Positions 38,796 to 49,093 of a stretch of 64,000 nucleotides of DNA are shown piece after piece. The first letter of the stretch is position 1, and every line of letters starts with the position of its first letter. The notes beneath the pieces were generated by a model. The model was not told the origin of the DNA and made no database searches. It saw nothing but the letters and a program-made list of their open reading frames with translations. Made by a program: the position numbers and the translations under genes. Source of the stretch: Actinorhabdospora filicis (GTDB taxonomy: Bacteria; Actinomycetota; Actinomycetes; Mycobacteriales; Micromonosporaceae); the NCBI RefSeq assembly GCF_030269765.1, contig NZ_BSTX01000003.1, positions 496,001 to 560,000 on the forward strand. The letters run 5' to 3'.

Positions 38796-38996
38796 CTAGT
38801 GGCAGGAGCCCCAGGCGGTCCACGCGCTGCAGGTCCAGGTGCAGTGCTGGCCGCGGTAGCAGCAGGTCTTGTAGCGGCAGTAGCCGTCGCTCATCTCCCG
38901 GTACTGGATGCAGTCCGGAGGACACACGGCCGCCGCCTCCTTGGCGGGGACGACCTTGGACAGGATCTTGTCGGTCAGCTTGCCCAGCATGCTCAT
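38796..38996 (-). CDS. Cys-rich peptide, divergent member (8 Cys)
   Basis: A 66-residue peptide. Residues 1-20 (MSMLGKLTDKILSKVVPAKE) form a basic amphipathic helix without a signal peptide. Residues 25-66 carry eight cysteines (25, 29, 40, 45, 46, 52, 56, 65), many aromatics and the end AWGSCH. GAGAGGAG lies six bases before the ATG. It resembles the three tandem peptides at 44.8-45.9 kb in layout, and the same operator-like dyad lies 147 bases upstream. It could be a RiPP-like precursor, a zinc or metal peptide, or a disulfide toxin. I do not recognise the family. Confidence 0.72.
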   Translation of the reverse strand: MSMLGKLTDKILSKVVPAKEAAAVCPPDCIQYREMSDGYCRYKTCCYRGQHCTWTCSAWTAWGSCH

Positions 38997-39175: not shown

Positions 39176-39460
39176 TTACCCACCGGCAACCGAAGGGATG
39201 ATCTGGACCTCGGAAGACGCGCCCACGGGCGTGTCCAGGCCCTCCATCCGGCGGCACTCCTCACCGTCGACGTACACGTTCACGAAACGCCGCAGCACGC
39301 CCTGCTCGTCGCGCAGGCGGCGGTCTATGCGCGGATGCCGGGCGGCGAGGGCGTCCAGCGCGTCGCGCAGGACGGCGTCCCCGCCCAGCTCGACCACGGC
39401 CTTCGACTCGCCGCCGGTGTCGACCCGCAGCGCGCCGGGGATGATGACGGTGACGGCCAC
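39176..39460 (-). CDS. MoaD/ThiS-like ubiquitin-fold sulfur carrier
   Basis: A 94-residue beta-grasp protein (MAVTVIIPGALRVDTGG, LRRFVNVYVDGEECR) ending in the Gly-Gly tail VAGG, the residue activated as thiocarboxylate in sulfur carriers. It starts with GTG directly after the stop of the BNR-repeat gene, so the two are co-translated. No adenylating enzyme or sulfur-using enzyme is nearby. Its partner pathway is unknown. Confidence 0.85.
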   Translation of the reverse strand: MAVTVIIPGALRVDTGGESKAVVELGGDAVLRDALDALAARHPRIDRRLRDEQGVLRRFVNVYVDGEECRRMEGLDTPVGASSEVQIIPSVAGG

Positions 39461-40549
39461 CTAGACCACCGCGGCCCGCACGCAGAGCACGTCGGGGAGA
39501 TGCCCGGCGGCCTGGACGAAGGACTCGCCGTCGTCGGCGGACACGAACACGTCGCCGACCCGGGTGCCCACGTACAGCCCCGGCGTCTCGGCCCCGTCGG
39601 TACAGAGGGCGTCGCGCAGGACGATGCCGTAGTACGGGTCGTCCAGCACGTTCAGGCCGGTCCAGCTCGCCCCGGCGTCCTCGGTGCGGTAGACCCGCAG
39701 CCGGTAGTCGTAGGGGTAGCGGTTGTCGGAGAAGGCCACCGGCGCGTTGAACGCCACGCCCTCGCGCGAGGGGTGCGCCAGGATCGAGAAGCCGAAGTCG
39801 GTCGGCAGGTCATCGGCGATCGACGTCCACGACCGGCCGTCGTCGTCGCTGCGGTACACGCCTCCGTGGTTCTGCAGGTACAGCCGCTCGGGGTTCTGCG
39901 AGTCGCGCGAGACCTTGTGGATGCACTGCCCGTACTCGGGGTAGTGGAGGTCGCCGGGCATGAACTCGGTCTTGACGCCGGTGTTGGACGCCGTCCAGCT
40001 CGCCCCGCCGTCCTCGGTGCGGTAGACGCCGCCGGTGGACATCGCGATGAGCATCCTCCGCGCGTCGGCGGGGTGCGGGACGATCGTGTGGATCGCCGGG
40101 CCGCCGGCGCCCTCGCCCCACTCCGCCCGGTGCGGGTGCTCCCACAGCGAGCGGACCAGCTCGTAGCTGGCGCCCCGGTCCGCGCTGCGCCACAGCGCCC
40201 ACGGCTCCGAACCGGCGTAGACGACGTCCTCCTGCCCCGCCGGGGCCGGGAACGCGAACTGCCAGGCCCGCTTGTAGGTGGCGCCGGTGTCGGCGGGGAA
40301 CGCGATCGGCGGGGCGTGCTCCGCCTCCTCCCAGGTCTTGCCCAGGTCGTCGCTGGTGTAGACGCTGGGACCGAAGTGCGCGCTGTCGGCGCTGACGACG
40401 ATGCGCGGTGTGGTCCTTCGTGTGTCGATGCCCACGGCGTACACGCCGTTCACCGCGAACATCGGCGTGGAGACCTCCCAGCGGCGGCGGTCGCGACTGG
40501 TGGCGAGGAACAGGCCTTTTCCCGTTCCGATGGCGAGTAGATACGTCAT
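39461..40549 (-). CDS. BNR/sialidase-like beta-propeller protein
   Basis: A 362-residue cytoplasmic protein of repeated Asp-box motifs: YTSDDLGKTWEEAE, WRSADRGASYELV, YRTEDGGASWTAS, YRSDDDGRSWTSI, YRTEDAGASWTGL and VSADDGESF. There is no signal peptide, so extracellular sialidase action is unlikely. AAAGGAG lies six bases before the ATG. It is paired end-to-end with the MoaD/ThiS-like gene; this pairing suggests a shared, still unknown function. Confidence 0.85.
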   Translation of the reverse strand: MTYLLAIGTGKGLFLATSRDRRRWEVSTPMFAVNGVYAVGIDTRRTTPRIVVSADSAHFGPSVYTSDDLGKTWEEAEHAPPIAFPADTGATYKRAWQFAFPAPAGQEDVVYAGSEPWALWRSADRGASYELVRSLWEHPHRAEWGEGAGGPAIHTIVPHPADARRMLIAMSTGGVYRTEDGGASWTASNTGVKTEFMPGDLHYPEYGQCIHKVSRDSQNPERLYLQNHGGVYRSDDDGRSWTSIADDLPTDFGFSILAHPSREGVAFNAPVAFSDNRYPYDYRLRVYRTEDAGASWTGLNVLDDPYYGIVLRDALCTDGAETPGLYVGTRVGDVFVSADDGESFVQAAGHLPDVLCVRAAVV

Positions 40550-42728: not shown

Positions 42729-44573
42729 ATGCCGCAACTCCGCTCTCGCACCTCGACGCACGGACGCAACCAGGCCGGTGCCCGCGCCCTGTGGCGCGCC
42801 ACCGGCCTCACCGACGGCGACTTCGGCAAGCCCATCGTCGCCATCGCCAACAGCTACACCCAGTTCGTACCCGGCCACGTGCACCTCAAGGACCTCGGCG
42901 ACATCGTCGCCGGGTCGATCCGCGAGGCGGGCGGCGTTTCGCGCGAGTTCCACACCATCGCCGTCGACGACGGCATCGCCATGGGCCACGGCGGGATGCT
43001 CTACTCGCTGCCCAGCCGCGAGCTGATCGCCGACAGCGTCGAGTACATGGTCAACGCGCACTGCGCCGACGCCCTCGTGTGCATCTCCAACTGCGACAAG
43101 ATCACCCCCGGGATGCTGCTGGCCGCCCTGCGCCTGAACATCCCCACCGTCTTCGTCTCCGGCGGGCCCATGGAGGCCGGGCGCACCTTCGCCGTGGGCA
43201 ACGTGGTCAAGCCGCGCCTCGACCTCGTCGACGCCATGGTCGCCAGCGCCGACGCCTCGGTGGACGACGCGACCCTCGACGAGATCGAGCGCAACGCGTG
43301 CCCGACCTGCGGGTCCTGTTCGGGCATGTTCACCGCCAACTCGATGAACTGCCTGCTGGAGGCCATCGGCCTGGCCCTGCCGGGCAACGGCTCCACCCTG
43401 GCCACCCACGCCGCCCGCCGCGGCCTGTTCGAGCGCGCCGGGACCACCGTGATGGACCTGGCCCGCCGCTACTACGACGGCGACGACGAGTCGGTCCTGC
43501 CGCTGAACATCGCCACCCGCGAGGCCTTCGACAACGCGATGACCCTCGACGTGGCCATGGGCGGCTCCACCAACACCGTCCTGCACCTGCTGGCCGCCGC
43601 CCGCGAGGCCGGGGTCGAGTTCGGGGTCGGCGACATCGACGCCATCTCCCGGCGCGTGCCGTGCCTGTCCAAGGTCGCGCCGAACTCGCCGAAGTTCTTC
43701 ATGGAGGACGTGCACCGGGCCGGCGGCATCCCCGCGATCCTGGGTGAGCTGAACCGCGCCGGGCTGCTGAGCACCGGCGTCCGCAGCGTGCACTCGGCGG
43801 GCCTGGCCGACTGGCTCGACGACTGGGACGTGCGCGGCGGCAAGGCGGGGGAGGCGGCGATCGAGCTGTTCCACGCCGCGCCCGGCGGCGTCCGCACCAC
43901 CCAGGCCTTCTCGACCGAGAACCGCTGGGAGAGCCTGGACGTCGACGCGGCCAACGGGTGCATCCGCGACAACGCGCACGCCTACAGCGCCGACGGCGGC
44001 CTGGCGGTGCTGTTCGGGAACATCGCGCCGGAGGGCTGCGTGGTCAAGGCCGCGGGCGTGCCCGAGGAGTGCCTGACCTTCGCCGGGCGGGCGCGCGTCT
44101 TCGAGTCGCAGGACGACGCGGTCGCCGCGATCATGAACGACGAGGTCGTCCCCGGCGACGTCGTGGTGATCCGCTACGAGGGGCCGCGCGGCGGTCCCGG
44201 CATGCAGGAGATGCTCCACCCGACCTCGTTCCTGAAGGGCAAGGGCCTGGGCCGGGCGTGCGCGCTCATTACCGACGGCCGCTTCTCCGGCGGGACCTCG
44301 GGCCTGTCCATCGGGCACATCTCGCCCGAGGCGGCCTCGGGCGGCGCGATCGCGCTGGTCCGCGACGGCGACACGATCGCCATCGACATCGCCGCGCGCT
44401 CGATCGCACTGGAGGTCTCCGAGGACGAGCTGGCCGTGCGCCGCGCGAAGGAGGAGGCCCGCGAGCACCCGTACACGCCGGTGGACCGCGACCGCCCGGT
44501 GACCGCCGCGCTGCGCGCCTACGCGTCCATGGCCACCTCGGCCAGCGACGGGGCGTACCGCCTGGTGCCGTAA
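42729..44573 (+). CDS. ilvD: Dihydroxy-acid dehydratase
   Basis: A 614-residue Fe-S enzyme giving the 2-oxo acids of valine and isoleucine from dihydroxy acids. Cluster-binding Cys lie in [10 protein letters not shown] (near residue 121) and [11 protein letters not shown] (near 190-196). The C-terminal [16 protein letters not shown] is typical. The start [12 protein letters not shown] matches the family; a GTG 24 bases upstream is open. It is followed by a perfect terminator and separated by 6.2 kb from ilvBNC. Confidence 0.97.
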
Positions 44574-44635: not shown

Positions 44636-44684
44636 CCGCACACTGGTGCGCATAAGAATGCATGTTCGATCATGATCGAGCATT
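44636..44684 (+). promoter_or_regulatory. Double regulatory block upstream of Cys-rich peptide 1
   Basis: CCGCACACTGGTGCGCATAA (44636-44655) matches the peptide-family dyad. Nine bases further lies TTCGATCATGATCGAGCATT (44665-44684), with a 12-bp perfect palindrome CGATCATGATCG. The same two blocks in the same order and spacing precede peptide 3. A third block, starting GCATTCTTTCCGATCG at 44708, is also shared. Confidence 0.7.
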
Positions 44685-44779
44685 GAACGATCATGGAGTG
44701 ACTGCAAGCATTCTTTCCGATCGCGTTCGGTGGGACCTCGCGTCAGTGGGGGCCGGACGCGGTTCGTGGAGGGATGACC

Positions 44780-44968
44780 ATGAAGTTCGTTGATCGTGTT
44801 CTGGACCGCCTGGTCGGCACCGGCCGGGCCCGGGCGGCCTGCGACTACAAGAAGTGGCGCGAGTGCGTCTACAGCGGCATCTGCAACACCAACGGGTGGC
44901 ACGCCCGCTACGAGTACGTCCGGCACACCAACTGCAAGGTCGACACGACCTGGCTCGGCTGCTGCTAG
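44780..44968 (+). CDS. Cys-rich peptide 1 (6 Cys, tandem family)
   Basis: A 62-residue peptide. Residues 1-16 (MKFVDRVLDRLVGTGR) form a basic amphipathic helix with no signal peptide. The rest carries six cysteines at 21, 29, 35, 52, 61 and 62, with SGIC in the middle and a WLGCC end. An ATG six bases upstream is in frame, but the second ATG (44780) has the proper spacing from GGAGGG and matches the siblings. Core spacing is C-x7-C-x5-C-x16-C-x8-CC. Function unknown; it could be a modified-peptide precursor or a disulfide/metal peptide. Confidence 0.78.
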   Translation: MKFVDRVLDRLVGTGRARAACDYKKWRECVYSGICNTNGWHARYEYVRHTNCKVDTTWLGCC

Positions 44969-44981
44969 CCGCCCGTCCCGG

Positions 44982-45013
44982 CCCCGTCGTCCCCGCGTGC
45001 GGGGGTGGCGGGG
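44982..45013 (+). terminator. Terminator-like hairpin after peptide 1
   Basis: CCCCG and CCCCGC pair with GCGGGG and CGGGG in an interrupted stem around GT, then TTTCGTTT. Confidence 0.5.
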
Positions 45014-45115
45014 TTTCGTTTACGTGCCCTCGGCTCGAATAGGCCGCCGGTATCGCGGCCGGAGCGCGCCGGAAGCATGATCCGGCCGGGACGCGTAACC
45101 GTAAGGATCCTTTGT

Positions 45116-45137
45116 GGACGCGGCGGGGGCCGCGTCC
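45116..45137 (+). other. 5' leader hairpin before peptide 2
   Basis: GGACGCGGC and GCCGCGTCC pair perfectly around GGGG, 14 bases before the peptide 2 ATG and just ahead of its AAGGGAG ribosome site. It could affect translation. Confidence 0.5.
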
Positions 45138-45151
45138 GCGAAGGGAGCGAA

Positions 45152-45337
45152 ATGAAGCTCATCGACCGTGTCGTGACCCGTCTCGTCGGCAAGGCCGTGG
45201 CGAAGGCGAGCCCGTGTCAGGGCTCGCAGTACACGTACTGCGTGCCCAGTGGCATCTGCGCCGGCGGGCACTCGCGTTACAAGCACGTCATCAAGCCCGA
45301 CTGCACCGAGAGCGACACCTGGATCGGCTGCTGCTAG
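45152..45337 (+). CDS. Cys-rich peptide 2 (6 Cys, tandem family)
   Basis: A 61-residue peptide that starts MKLIDRVVTRLVGKAVAKAS and ends DTWIGCC. Cysteines at 22, 30, 36, 51, 60 and 61 keep the C-x7-C-x5-C-x14-C-x8-CC pattern; PSGIC and HSRYKH align with the siblings. AAGGGAG precedes the ATG at five bases. Unlike peptides 1 and 3 it lacks the upstream dyads, so it may be read from the peptide 1 promoter. Function unknown. Confidence 0.78.
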   Translation: MKLIDRVVTRLVGKAVAKASPCQGSQYTYCVPSGICAGGHSRYKHVIKPDCTESDTWIGCC

Positions 45338-45585
45338 CCAGAACCCTGTGGCGATCGTCCCGTGCGCCGCGCGTGCCTCCCCGGCCGCGTGCGCGCGGGG
45401 GCGGGGATCTAGCCGTCCCCGCCGGCCGGACGCCGGGTGCGCGAGCGGTACTCGGACTCACCGCGCGCGTCCCGGCCCGGACGCCGAACCCCGTCGTCCC
45501 ACCGCCTGTCTCGGAGCGGAGGGGCGGCGGGGTTCTTCCCGTGCCGGGCGCGTTCGGCCGCCGGTCTTGCGGAGACGCACATTCG
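45338..45585. other. Spacer between peptides 2 and 3
   Basis: Apart from the terminator-like hairpin at 45486-45535, this 250-base GC-rich spacer shows no further peptide gene or clear promoter. Short open frames here lack ribosome sites. Confidence 0.4.
45486..45535 (+). terminator. Terminator-like hairpin between peptides 2 and 3
   Basis: GAACCCCG (45486-45493) and CGGGGTTC (45528-45535) pair over a long loop, followed by TTC. The arms are the same sequence as the outer stem of the terminator after peptide 3, which points to duplication of whole cassettes. Confidence 0.45.
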
Positions 45586-45634
45586 ATGCACACTCACGTG
45601 CATAGCCAGGGCATTTCGATCATGATCGAGCATT
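45586..45634 (+). promoter_or_regulatory. Double regulatory block upstream of Cys-rich peptide 3
   Basis: ATGCACACTCACGTGCATAG (45586-45605) contains the exact arms ATGCAC and GTGCAT. TTCGATCATGATCGAGCATT (45615-45634) is identical to the block before peptide 1. The dyad ends 124 bases before the ATG, against 123 for peptide 1. A third block starting GCATCCTTTCCGGTCG at 45659 ends exactly 50 bases before the ATG, as in peptide 1. Confidence 0.72.
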
Positions 45635-45730
45635 GTCCAGGTGAGGGGCCCACTGTCAGCATCCTTTCCGGTCGTGTCCGGCAGCCACTCGCGCAGCGAG
45701 AGCGGTGCACGGCCGCTTGGGAGGATCGAC

Positions 45731-45913
45731 ATGAAGCTCATCGACCGCGTTCTCACCCGTCTCGTCGGCAAGGCCAGCGCCACCGCGGGCTGTCCCTACG
45801 AGAGCTGGACCGGCTGCGGCATCAGCGGCATCTGCCCCGGACTGCACACCAAGTACCGCTACACCCAGGGCGGCAACTGCAAGGTGACCCAGGTTCAGAT
45901 CGGCTGCTGCTAA
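45731..45913 (+). CDS. Cys-rich peptide 3 (6 Cys, tandem family)
   Basis: A 60-residue peptide: MKLIDRVLTRLVGKASATAG, then cysteines at 21, 29, 35, 50, 59 and 60 in the same C-x7-C-x5-C-x14-C-x8-CC pattern, with ISGIC, HTKYRY and a QIGCC end. The ATG follows GGGAGG at six bases. The N-terminal 14 residues differ from peptide 2 at one position only, while the Cys-containing half is much more divergent apart from the cysteines. That pattern is typical of leader-core precursors but is not proof of one. Confidence 0.8.
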   Translation: MKLIDRVLTRLVGKASATAGCPYESWTGCGISGICPGLHTKYRYTQGGNCKVTQVQIGCC

Positions 45914-46465: not shown

Positions 46466-49093
46466 GTGTGGCGCACCTGGGGACAGCGGCGAGCTGAGAC
46501 TTTAACCGCCCTGCGCCGTGCCGTGCTGGCCTTCACCCTCCTCTACGCCGTCGGCATCGGCCTGCGGTACTTCGGCGACGACAAGCGCGTCCCCGGCCTC
46601 GGCACGGCATCGGTGGCCGTGGTCATCGCCGTCGCCTCGGCCGCCGCCGCCCACCTCGCCGACCGCCTTCCCGGACGCGAGGCCTACCGCAACATCGCCA
46701 TCGGCATGGGCGTGGGCGCCTTCTCCGTCGGCATCGCCGTCATCCTCGCCCGCCCCCACGCGCTGTGGGCCGTCGGCATCGGCAGCGTCATCTCGGCCGG
46801 CTTCTTCATCCACGGGCTCCTGCGGCTCCCCGGCGGCGTCAACGGCCTCGCGCCGCGCCTCGGCCTTGCCCTCGACGGCCTCATCATCGCCGCCTGCCTG
46901 TCCTTCACGATGTGGATGCTCTTCTTCGTCGACTACCGGCCCGACGCGCTCTCGCCCGCCTTCACCTGGAGCTACGGCTTCGTGCTGACCGTCGCGCTGC
47001 TGTCGGCGACCATCGTCGGCATCGGCATGGTCGCCGCCGTCCGCGCCACCGGATACCGCCGCGCCCACATCCTCCTCGCCCTCGGGCTGTCCATCGTGGC
47101 CCTGGCCGGGCCGCCGATGCTCATCGGCGTCGACGTCGGCTCCTACGGCATCTGCCGCGCGGCGATGCTGTCCTGGGGAGCCGGGGCCATGCTCGTGGTC
47201 ATCGCGCTGCTGTTCGGACTGCGCTCGCCGGGTGCCGCCCGCGCGCGGCCGATCCCGCACATCGGGCTGCTGGTCACCCTCGTGCCCACCGCGATCGCCG
47301 GTGGCGCGGCGATCTACCACGCCGCCGCGAAGGGGCCGCTGCGCCTGGACACCGTCATCGCCGCCGTGTTCGTGGTGGCCGCGCTGATCTCCCGGCAGAT
47401 CCTGACCCGCTTCGACGTCCGCCGCGCCGCCGAGCAGCTGGCCGACCGGGAGGCCTACTTCCGGTCCATCGTGGCCGGATCCTCCGAGGTCATCACCGTC
47501 CTCGACGACGACATGGTGGTGCGCTGGCAGTCGCCGTCCTCGACCTGGCGGATGGACTGGACCGAGGCGCAGGCGCGCGGCCGCTCCTTCGACGAGCTCG
47601 TCCACCCCGACGACGCCGCCCCCGTCCGCAAGCAGCTCACCCGCGCCCTCACCGGCGAGGCGGTCATCCTCGACGGCCGCATCATGGACGCCGACGGCGA
47701 CTGGCGCGACACCGAGTCCACCGTGGCCGACCACCGCGACGTCCCCCAGGTGCGCGGCCTGGTCGTCCACACCCGCGACGTCGGCGACCGCAAGCAGCTG
47801 GAGCGCGAACTGGCGCGCATGGCCTACGCCGACCCGCTCACCGGCCTGGCCAACCGCCGCCAGCTGCTGCGCAAACTGGAGAACGACGTCGCCGGATCCG
47901 GCATCCCCTGCACGATGCTGGCCATCGACCTCGACGAGTTCAAGAACGTCAATGACCTGCACGGCCACGACGTCGGCGACGAGGTCCTGGTCGAGGTCGC
48001 CGAGCGCCTGCGCGCCAACCTGCGGCCCACCGACCTGGGCGCCCGCCTCGGCGGCGACGAGTTCGCCGTCCTGCTCTGGTGCGGCGTCAAGGACGCCGGG
48101 GACATCGCCGAGCGGCTGCTGGCCGCGCTGTCGGAGCCCTACGACTGCGGGCGCACCCGCGTGTTCCTGTCGATCTCCATCGGCGTGGCCGGCTGCGGCA
48201 CCGCCGACGACGTCGAGACGCTCATGCGCAACGCCGACCTGGCCCTGCGCTTCGCCAAGGAGCGCGGCAAGAACCGCATCGAGCGCTACGACGCCGACTT
48301 CGAGGCCCTCGTCCGCCGCCGCACCACCCTGGAGCAGGAACTGCGCGGCGCCAACGAACGCGGCGAGCTGCACCTGGTCTACCAGCCCGTGGTCGCCCTC
48401 CCCGGCCGCGAGATCGTCGGCGCCGAGGCCCTGCTGCGCTGGACGCATCCCGTCCTCGGCTCGGTCTCGCCCGCCGAGTTCATCCCGGCCGCCGAATCGG
48501 CCGGGATCATGGACGAGCTGACCGCCTGGTCGCTGCGCGAGACCGCCGGGAAGCTGTCCCAGTGGCGCGCCTCCGGGCACCGGCTGTGGGTCTCGCTGAA
48601 CGTCTCGGTCCGGCAGCTGCACTCGCCGAACTTCGCCGTCGAGGTCGCCCAGTCCCTCGTGGAGCGCGGCGTCCCGCCGCACCAGCTGGTCGTGGAGATC
48701 ACCGAGCACGACGTCGCCTACGACGTCAACCGCCTGGTGGCGCAGCTGACCGGGCTGCGCGCGACGGGCGTCCGCATCGCCCTGGACGACTTCGGCGCCG
48801 GCTACTCCTCGCTGGGGCAGCTGCACCGGCTGCCGGTGGACATCATCAAGATCGACCGCGCGCTCGTCGTGGGCGCCGAGGACGGCACCGCGCCCCTCTC
48901 CGACGTGGTCGTGCGCCTGGGCGAGCGCCTCGGCCTCGACGTGATCGCCGAGGGCGTGGAGACCGAGGCGCAGCTGGCGCACGTCGTCGAGGCCGGTTGC
49001 CCGCTGGGGCAGGGCTACCTGTTCCACCGGCCGCTGATGGCGGTCGACCTGGAGGCGCGCCTCGCCGAGGGCGTGGCCGCGGCGGGGGACTAG
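46466..49093 (+). CDS. Membrane PAS-GGDEF-EAL cyclic di-GMP enzyme
   Basis: An 875-residue protein. About nine membrane helices fill residues 15-310, followed by a PAS domain (REAYFRSIVAGSSEVITVLD, residues 330-440). The diguanylate cyclase domain has GGDEF near residue 529. The phosphodiesterase domain has EALLRW near 653, NVSVRQLH, EITEHD, LDDFGAGYSS, KIDRAL and IAEGVETE. Both active sites look intact. The GTG start has no strong ribosome site. Its end overlaps the convergent MarR gene by four bases. Confidence 0.92.
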   Translation: MWRTWGQRRAETLTALRRAVLAFTLLYAVGIGLRYFGDDKRVPGLGTASVAVVIAVASAAAAHLADRLPGREAYRNIAIGMGVGAFSVGIAVILARPHALWAVGIGSVISAGFFIHGLLRLPGGVNGLAPRLGLALDGLIIAACLSFTMWMLFFVDYRPDALSPAFTWSYGFVLTVALLSATIVGIGMVAAVRATGYRRAHILLALGLSIVALAGPPMLIGVDVGSYGICRAAMLSWGAGAMLVVIALLFGLRSPGAARARPIPHIGLLVTLVPTAIAGGAAIYHAAAKGPLRLDTVIAAVFVVAALISRQILTRFDVRRAAEQLADREAYFRSIVAGSSEVITVLDDDMVVRWQSPSSTWRMDWTEAQARGRSFDELVHPDDAAPVRKQLTRALTGEAVILDGRIMDADGDWRDTESTVADHRDVPQVRGLVVHTRDVGDRKQLERELARMAYADPLTGLANRRQLLRKLENDVAGSGIPCTMLAIDLDEFKNVNDLHGHDVGDEVLVEVAERLRANLRPTDLGARLGGDEFAVLLWCGVKDAGDIAERLLAALSEPYDCGRTRVFLSISIGVAGCGTADDVETLMRNADLALRFAKERGKNRIERYDADFEALVRRRTTLEQELRGANERGELHLVYQPVVALPGREIVGAEALLRWTHPVLGSVSPAEFIPAAESAGIMDELTAWSLRETAGKLSQWRASGHRLWVSLNVSVRQLHSPNFAVEVAQSLVERGVPPHQLVVEITEHDVAYDVNRLVAQLTGLRATGVRIALDDFGAGYSSLGQLHRLPVDIIKIDRALVVGAEDGTAPLSDVVVRLGERLGLDVIAEGVETEAQLAHVVEAGCPLGQGYLFHRPLMAVDLEARLAEGVAAAGD

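Follow-up and report, generated by a model that had tools for sequence, protein, structure and literature searches.

The closest described systems come from the decRiPPter survey of 2020 (Kloosterman et al.), which predicted candidate RiPP families in Streptomyces and reported MauE in three of them and MauD in one (PMC7794033). Each of these MauE/MauD clusters has a precursor with at least eight Cys residues, and the survey's text on them proposes a role in precursor modification (PMC7794033). The same text relates a speculation that, in methylamine utilisation, MauE assists disulfide formation in the β-subunit of methylamine dehydrogenase (PMC7794033, citing van der Palen 1997).

The peptide family described here, from Actinorhabdospora filicis and other actinobacteria, shares with the survey clusters a MauE homolog (PF07291) and a MauD/thioredoxin homolog, encoded in our case in the cassettes of other actinobacteria. 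Against the eight or more Cys of the survey precursors, one precursor studied here has eight (P0005), three have six (P0001–P0003) and their relatives have 4–12. Compared with those clusters as the survey's text describes them, additional features here are a common leader ending in AxA, an S26 peptidase, a rule of even Cys numbers and ≈60 precursors fed, as we propose, in trans, as well as a spread over Streptomyces, Streptosporangiaceae-type and Micromonosporaceae genomes. As in methylamine utilisation, the MauE protein belongs to PF07291 and is paired with a thioredoxin-like protein. The substrate, unlike in that system, would be a peptide of 40 residues that has an ABC exporter and an S26 peptidase of its own, and the cassettes showed no genes for methylamine dehydrogenase.

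Two other kinds of peptide invite comparison. Prochlorosins belong to the lanthipeptides, use a LanM enzyme and are exported by the double-glycine route, and they follow a similar logic, in which a conserved leader precedes a hypervariable Cys-containing core and many precursors depend on one enzyme set. The family studied here differs from them in its predicted disulfide chemistry, its AxA cleavage site and its S26 peptidase. Defensin-like bacteriocins such as laterosporulin are also small disulfide mini-proteins of bacteria, the bonds being predicted in our case; the PDB title of laterosporulin describes it as leaderless, whereas our precursors have a leader. We found no description of the common leader, the S26/ABC cassette, the parity rule or the dispersed regulon in the open-access literature, and they may be described elsewhere. 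The family has a fair chance, slightly better than even, of being a new class of bacterial ribosomal peptides with a secretion and oxidation route of its own, marked by ABC, S26 and MauE/MauD proteins and by an AxA leader, which would have grown from a one-peptide cluster into a genome-wide regulon of ≈60 members in one branch of the Micromonosporaceae. Otherwise it would be a variant of a kind already predicted.

The precursors and their genomic setting

The stretch analyzed (the window) covers 64 kb and contains three consecutive open reading frames for peptides of 60–62 aa, all present as a sequence-only reading had described them. P0001 (44780–44968, + strand, 62 aa), P0002 (45152–45337, + strand, 61 aa) and P0003 (45731–45913, + strand, 60 aa) have six Cys residues each and are predicted to be leader-core precursors. 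Against the whole genome all three match the family profile at E values of about 1e-13 (1.8e-13 for P0001 and 6.8e-13 for P0002), the profile having been built with them included. Their alignment has 24 invariant columns and agrees with that reading in the pattern MK[LF][IV]DRV..RLVG, in the six Cys with SGIC and GCC, and in the single difference between P0002 and P0003 over the first 14 residues. The spacing C-x7-C-x5-C-x(14,16)-C-x8-CC holds for these three peptides but not for the family, in which both the number of Cys (4–12) and their spacing differ.

Shine-Dalgarno-like motifs (GGAGG, GGGAG and GGAGG, respectively) precede the ATG of P0001, P0002 and P0003. For P0001 the motif lies 7 nt before the ATG at 44780, a start that we preferred to the ATG at 44774. 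The DNA of the region shows three direct repeats in register. The sister genus (genome G025) has a single-copy relative (L293:9008-9193) at the same site, between ilvD and a GGDEF-EAL gene, and the triplet is therefore a local duplication. Judged by the profile E values, the related genes in other genomes and this syntenic relative, the similarity of the three peptides exceeds chance.

A fourth and divergent precursor, P0005 (38796–38996, − strand, 66 aa, eight Cys), is located 6 kb from the triplet. It gave the best profile match (E 4.1e-17), and its leader, MSMLGKLTDKILSKVVPAKEAAA (38928–38996, − strand), matches that of the family. The sequence-only reading had missed this gene as well as ≈56 paralogs outside the window and the upstream direct repeats at 44637, 45587 and 39146.

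Four further genes of the window have informative counterparts elsewhere. These encode a dihydroxy-acid dehydratase (ilvD, 42729–44573, + strand), a MoaD/ThiS-like protein (39176–39460, − strand), a BNR-repeat-type protein (39461–40549, − strand) and, 3′ of P0003, a GGDEF-EAL protein (46466–49093, + strand) of the kind that flanks the single relative in G025. A related genus, g5 (G004, G065 and G082), has an intact cassette of precursor and machinery genes amid orthologs of the window's own genes: ilvD, which lies beside or near it in L190, L191 and L195, and an APC permease are on one side, and the MoaD-like, BNR and 2-hydroxyacid dehydrogenase genes are on the other. For this reason the window looks like a former cassette neighborhood from which the machinery has gone and in which the precursors are left. 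Gene calling at one of the g5 loci (L191, G004 C1:800000-814000) gave no leader gene between MauE and MoaD, where one was expected; G082 has it, and in G004 it may have been lost or missed.

Searched against its own genome (7.2 Mb), P0002 found only P0001–P0003 plus weak matches, and P0005 found itself and 18 weak matches. A pattern scan of the genome contigs with the three peptides found no relative, since the P0001–P0003 subfamily is narrow and the leader degenerate. The common design of the family is M-x-x-[LI]-x-x-[LIV]-[AGT]-D-x-[LIV]-[LV]-x-x-[LVF]-[VA]-P-x-x-x-A-x-A, followed by a Cys-rich core of 35–50 residues. The family profile (A2), built from 24 members, gave 61 matches at E<0.1, nearly all of them short ORFs; 59 could be read as short ORFs with at least four core Cys, and 54 of these have a Shine-Dalgarno motif no more than 18 nt from the start. 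The genes are found at ≈48 separate sites, and a profile of the leader only recovers the same genes and almost nothing else. The profile was extended with matches from the genome under study, which makes those at its weak end (E>1e-3) uncertain. The family-wide counts, for which 31 candidates per genome were scored, are lower bounds. One member (C3:985007; L049:1508 onward) has a stop at its second codon and is an apparent pseudogene.

Neither the three peptides nor the 24-member family had a match above cut-off in sequence searches of Pfam, NCBIfam and the PDB. Homologs outside this strain were found by profile search in other actinobacterial genomes. The earlier idea of a leader-core design is thus strongly supported, as one and the same leader is found on ≈60 distinct Cys-rich cores of this genome and on the cassette precursors across actinobacteria.

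Export and oxidation genes, in cassettes and apart

One of the ≈60 precursor genes has a gene for an S26 peptidase, P0006, 55 bp downstream. A search of relatives with P0006 showed that, in almost all genomes that have few peptides, S26 genes lie at a distance of 0.1–3 kb from the leader peptides. Gene calling in 20 such regions revealed a recurrent set consisting of the peptide, a MauE-like membrane protein, a membrane thioredoxin, an ABC transporter and an S26 peptidase, often adjoined by a SARP/AfsR-type regulator. The MauE proteins match PF07291 above cut-off (E 1e-20 to 1e-28), as the S26 proteins match PF10502 (Peptidase_S26) and the transporters ABC_tran. All 16 thioredoxin-like proteins have a CxxC motif, their scores being below gathering for AhpC-TSA/Redoxin. 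Large regulators of the SARP/AfsR or NB-ARC-TPR type (L293:12123-15332 and L127:9991-12309) are found repeatedly beside peptide genes or cassettes. The L127 regulator, from Actinoplanes nipponensis, has in addition a match, below the model's cut-off, to the TPR protein found in cyclophane RiPP clusters.

When 80 loci from named genomes were picked by the ABC membrane domain alone, 66 had a leader peptide, 63 had MauE and 53 had all five elements, while the same peptide scan on the reversed locus sequences gave none. Genera with cassettes include Streptomyces, Micromonospora, Nonomuraea, Microbispora, Nocardiopsis, Thermobifida, Actinomadura, Dactylosporangium and Actinoplanes. Among 395 genomes of the class, the 24 with peptides were all among the 30 with the ABC transporter (hypergeometric 4e-33). 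In the 23 other than the present genome, 48 of 52 peptides are encoded within 5 kb of the ABC gene.

The sequence-only reading had noted that no modification enzyme or transporter was nearby. This is true within the window, but the inference drawn from it was too local, as exporter, peptidase and thiol-oxidase genes are present elsewhere in the genome. There is a single cassette-type ABC gene (C4:636863, E 9e-110, no second match at 1e-10), tens of kb from the nearest precursor and followed by an S26 gene (C4:638695-639117). MauD is encoded at C1:29062 (E 3e-46) beside a SARP gene (C1:30017-30763) and pheT, and pheT is also where the cassette sits in L132–L134. A second, weaker MauD (C1:1067891) lies directly 3′ of a precursor gene, and a cassette-type MauE (C4:773463) is not adjacent to genes of the window. 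Many precursors together with one or two ABC genes are also seen in G025 and genus g5. Virgisporangium aurantiacum (G074) has ≈20 separate copies of an ABC/MauD/S26 cassette (e.g., L142, L197 and L198). With ABC genes about as numerous as peptides, it is the opposite solution to a regulon served in trans.

In our reading, the precursors are probably secreted as disulfide-locked mini-proteins along a route of leader, ABC transporter, S26 peptidase and MauE/MauD, which in this genome would be served in trans. The leader would mark the precursor for a dedicated ABC exporter, a permease-ATPase without a peptidase domain of its own. A membrane-bound S26 signal peptidase would cleave behind A-x-A on the outer side of the membrane. 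The cysteines would be oxidised to disulfides by MauE paired with a membrane thioredoxin (MauD/TlpA-like, CxxC). Most cassette-bearing actinobacteria keep precursor and machinery in one cassette, often with a SARP/AfsR-type regulator. Here the cassette is split over three sites, one with ABC and S26, one with MauD beside SARP, and one with MauE. The three machinery sites would serve ≈60 precursors at ≈48 sites, tied to them by an operator of 12-bp direct repeats. The window holds two of these precursor sites, namely P0005 and the tandem triplication of one ancestral gene (P0001–P0003). We infer service in trans because there is only one cassette-type ABC gene in this genome.

Three of the putative operators are present in the 64-kb window: CGCACA-N6-CGCATA upstream of P0001 (44637–44654, + strand), TGCACA-N6-TGCATA upstream of P0003 (45587–45604, + strand) and TGCACA-N6-TGCACA upstream of P0005 (39146–39163, − strand). 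In the 247 kb of this genome that the counts cover, YGCAYA-N6-YGCAYA occurs 16 times, 15 of them within 220 bp upstream of precursor genes, and other spacings are nearly absent. The binomial value for this enrichment (1e-18) is inflated, since these same genes served to find the motif. Outside the discovery set, the repeat recurs 71 bp ahead of MauE and in the interval that separates MauD from the divergent SARP gene. It accompanies only some third of the precursor genes (15–20 of 59), and it is missing at P0002, P0006 and the ABC gene. It precedes 8 of 23 genes in G025 and is absent from genus g5 and the named cassettes. The 12-bp direct repeat before many precursors, MauE and MauD/SARP suggests a single regulon. 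The direct repeats bound by SARPs have a spacing of 11 or 22 bp (PMC10936776), to which 12 bp is close but not equal, so a SARP as the regulator is a guess.

The upstream regions of P0001 and P0003 also contain the palindrome TCGATCATGATCGAGCATT (44662–44679 and 45616–45633), which belongs to their duplicated promoter. The palindrome TCGATCATGATCGA was rejected as a family operator, being carried only upstream of P0001 and P0003.

Predicted cysteine pairing and leader cleavage, and rival explanations

According to the sequence-only reading, homologs should keep all six cysteines. This fails as stated, as the homologs have 4–12 Cys, but nearly always an even number. Among 192 different precursors, chosen in steps blind to Cys parity, the count was even (4 to 12) in 189 and odd in three (p 4e-52), which makes disulfides very likely. 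The closest or syntenic relatives of P0001–P0003 (L293:9008-9193 and L322:1554-1757) have eight Cys, and P0001–P0003 all lack the same two, which is what a bond between those two would lead one to expect; the pair predicted in this way is the fourth and sixth Cys of the eight-Cys relatives. AF2 models from shallow alignments gave a helical leader, a flexible linker of low confidence and a confident β core (pLDDT blocks of 87–94); in P0003, a predicted helix at residues 3–13 is followed by a three-stranded core. Foldseek searches of the PDB with both models found no significant match, and laterosporulin (4ozk) was far down the list (E 5.2, not significant).

These data bear on two other explanations of the cysteines, neither of which we consider probable. 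The peptides could be RiPP precursors that belong to a class with thioether or other covalent chemistry (lanthipeptide, sactipeptide or thiopeptide) and whose modifying enzyme is encoded elsewhere, and their leader-core design, the use of one enzyme set for many precursors and the resemblance of the cassette SARP/TPR regulators to those of RiPP clusters would all suit that idea. Yet no lanthipeptide synthetase or similar enzyme recurs among the annotated cassettes of the family, the redox genes that do recur are MauE and the CxxC thioredoxin, and thioethers would not require the even Cys numbers found. No better placed is the option, also raised in the sequence-only reading, of metal-binding or metallothionein-like peptides, cytoplasmic or exported. 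Cys does make up 19 percent of core residues, but His makes up only 2 percent. A metal ligand would hardly account for even parity with free choice of 4, 6, 8, 10 or 12 Cys, for the concerted absence of two Cys in P0001–P0003, or for the linkage to thiol-oxidising membrane proteins and an exporter.

The metal-binding option draws some further support from the nickel superoxide dismutase SodN of this genome, a weak profile match (C8:170149 region, L060:1277-1687, − strand). Its leader, MLFNRLLSAITPSTTASA, resembles those of the Cys peptides and precedes HCDLPCG, with the HC motif, and the processed N-terminus known for this enzyme follows a leader of similar type. SodN differs from the precursors in being an enzyme and not a Cys-rich peptide. 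SodX is the protease of SodN. The cassette S26 peptidase was rejected as SodX on scores of 46.9, 45.9 and 41.9 bits against the TIGR02754 cut-off of 63.25. No protein of this genome exceeds that cut-off, P0006 being the best SodX-like protein.

The leaders are consistent with the reading preferred here, that of disulfide-locked peptides secreted by a dedicated exporter. They are ≈19–25 residues long, amphipathic and end in A-x-A, usually as P-x-x-x-A-x-A. A-x-A lies within residues 15–30 in 57 of the 59 precursors of this genome, usually 0–2 residues before the first Cys. Predicted cuts are after ARA in P0001 (leader ≈residues 1–19, 44780–44836, + strand), after AKA in P0002 (45152–45208, + strand) and after ATA in P0003 (45731–45787, + strand). 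The helical hydrophobic moment of the leaders is 0.54, against 0.30 in shuffles. A Sec-type h-region is absent from them, the longest run without D/E/K/R/H/N/Q/P being mostly 3–6 residues. Nor do they have the GG/GA cleavage motif of double-glycine leaders. In the cassette ABC protein (≈600 aa) no recognised peptidase domain was found; there is no match to Peptidase_C39, and TIGR01193 scores far below cut-off. This fits a separate S26 enzyme. We infer the order of export, cleavage and oxidation, and likewise the substrate relation and the cleavage site.

That the general Sec/Tat pathway takes the leaders, the link to the cassette being incidental, is very improbable. The A-x-A that precedes the core is typical of signal-peptidase I sites, and the cassette S26 proteins exceed the cut-off for signal peptidase I, but the leaders have a strong helical moment in place of an uncharged hydrophobic stretch of Sec length, and every peptide-bearing genome of the class sample has the dedicated ABC transporter.

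In the recent duplicates P0002 and P0003, dN is 0.03 and dS 0.31 for the leader, and 0.75 and 0.51 for the core (small numbers). The diversifying selection proposed earlier is weakly supported between these two, but not between reciprocal best matches of the sister genera, where no dN excess was seen: 17 such pairs with G025, some of doubtful orthology, gave a dN/dS of 0.60 for leaders and 0.85 for cores. Some cores are well conserved between genera, e.g., that of the CGSDTTKC member. This speaks for a diversity that is old and stable, with local bursts after duplication. Selfish or decaying paralogs without a secreted product, 60 copies having drifted after the cassette broke up, would match the fragmented cassette, the stop codon in the C3:985007 copy and a core dN/dS only mildly below 1, but are highly improbable given near-perfect Cys parity, intact frames and ribosome-binding sites in 54 of 59 genes, cores kept between genera and operators in common, also on MauE and MauD.

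Possible roles of a large putative peptide regulon

The leader, the family, the linkage to the cassette, the Cys parity, the dispersion of the genes and the common repeat can be read directly in the sequences. The function of the mature products is putative, inter-microbial antagonism and signalling being the most likely roles and about equally probable.

The family turns an isolated observation of three peptides into a testable pathway. If our reading is right, this genome would encode one of the largest repertoires of different disulfide mini-proteins that have been proposed in bacteria, all using one promiscuous route of export and oxidation, and the leader could serve to export disulfide-rich peptides of foreign origin from a bacterium. 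It would also give access to a pool of natural mini-proteins, which standard cluster mining misses because precursors and machinery are not neighbors. A regulon of ≈60 peptides, if true, would be a bacterial counterpart of the nodule Cys-rich peptides of plants or of conotoxins, and it raises the question of why one bacterium keeps 60 such precursors.
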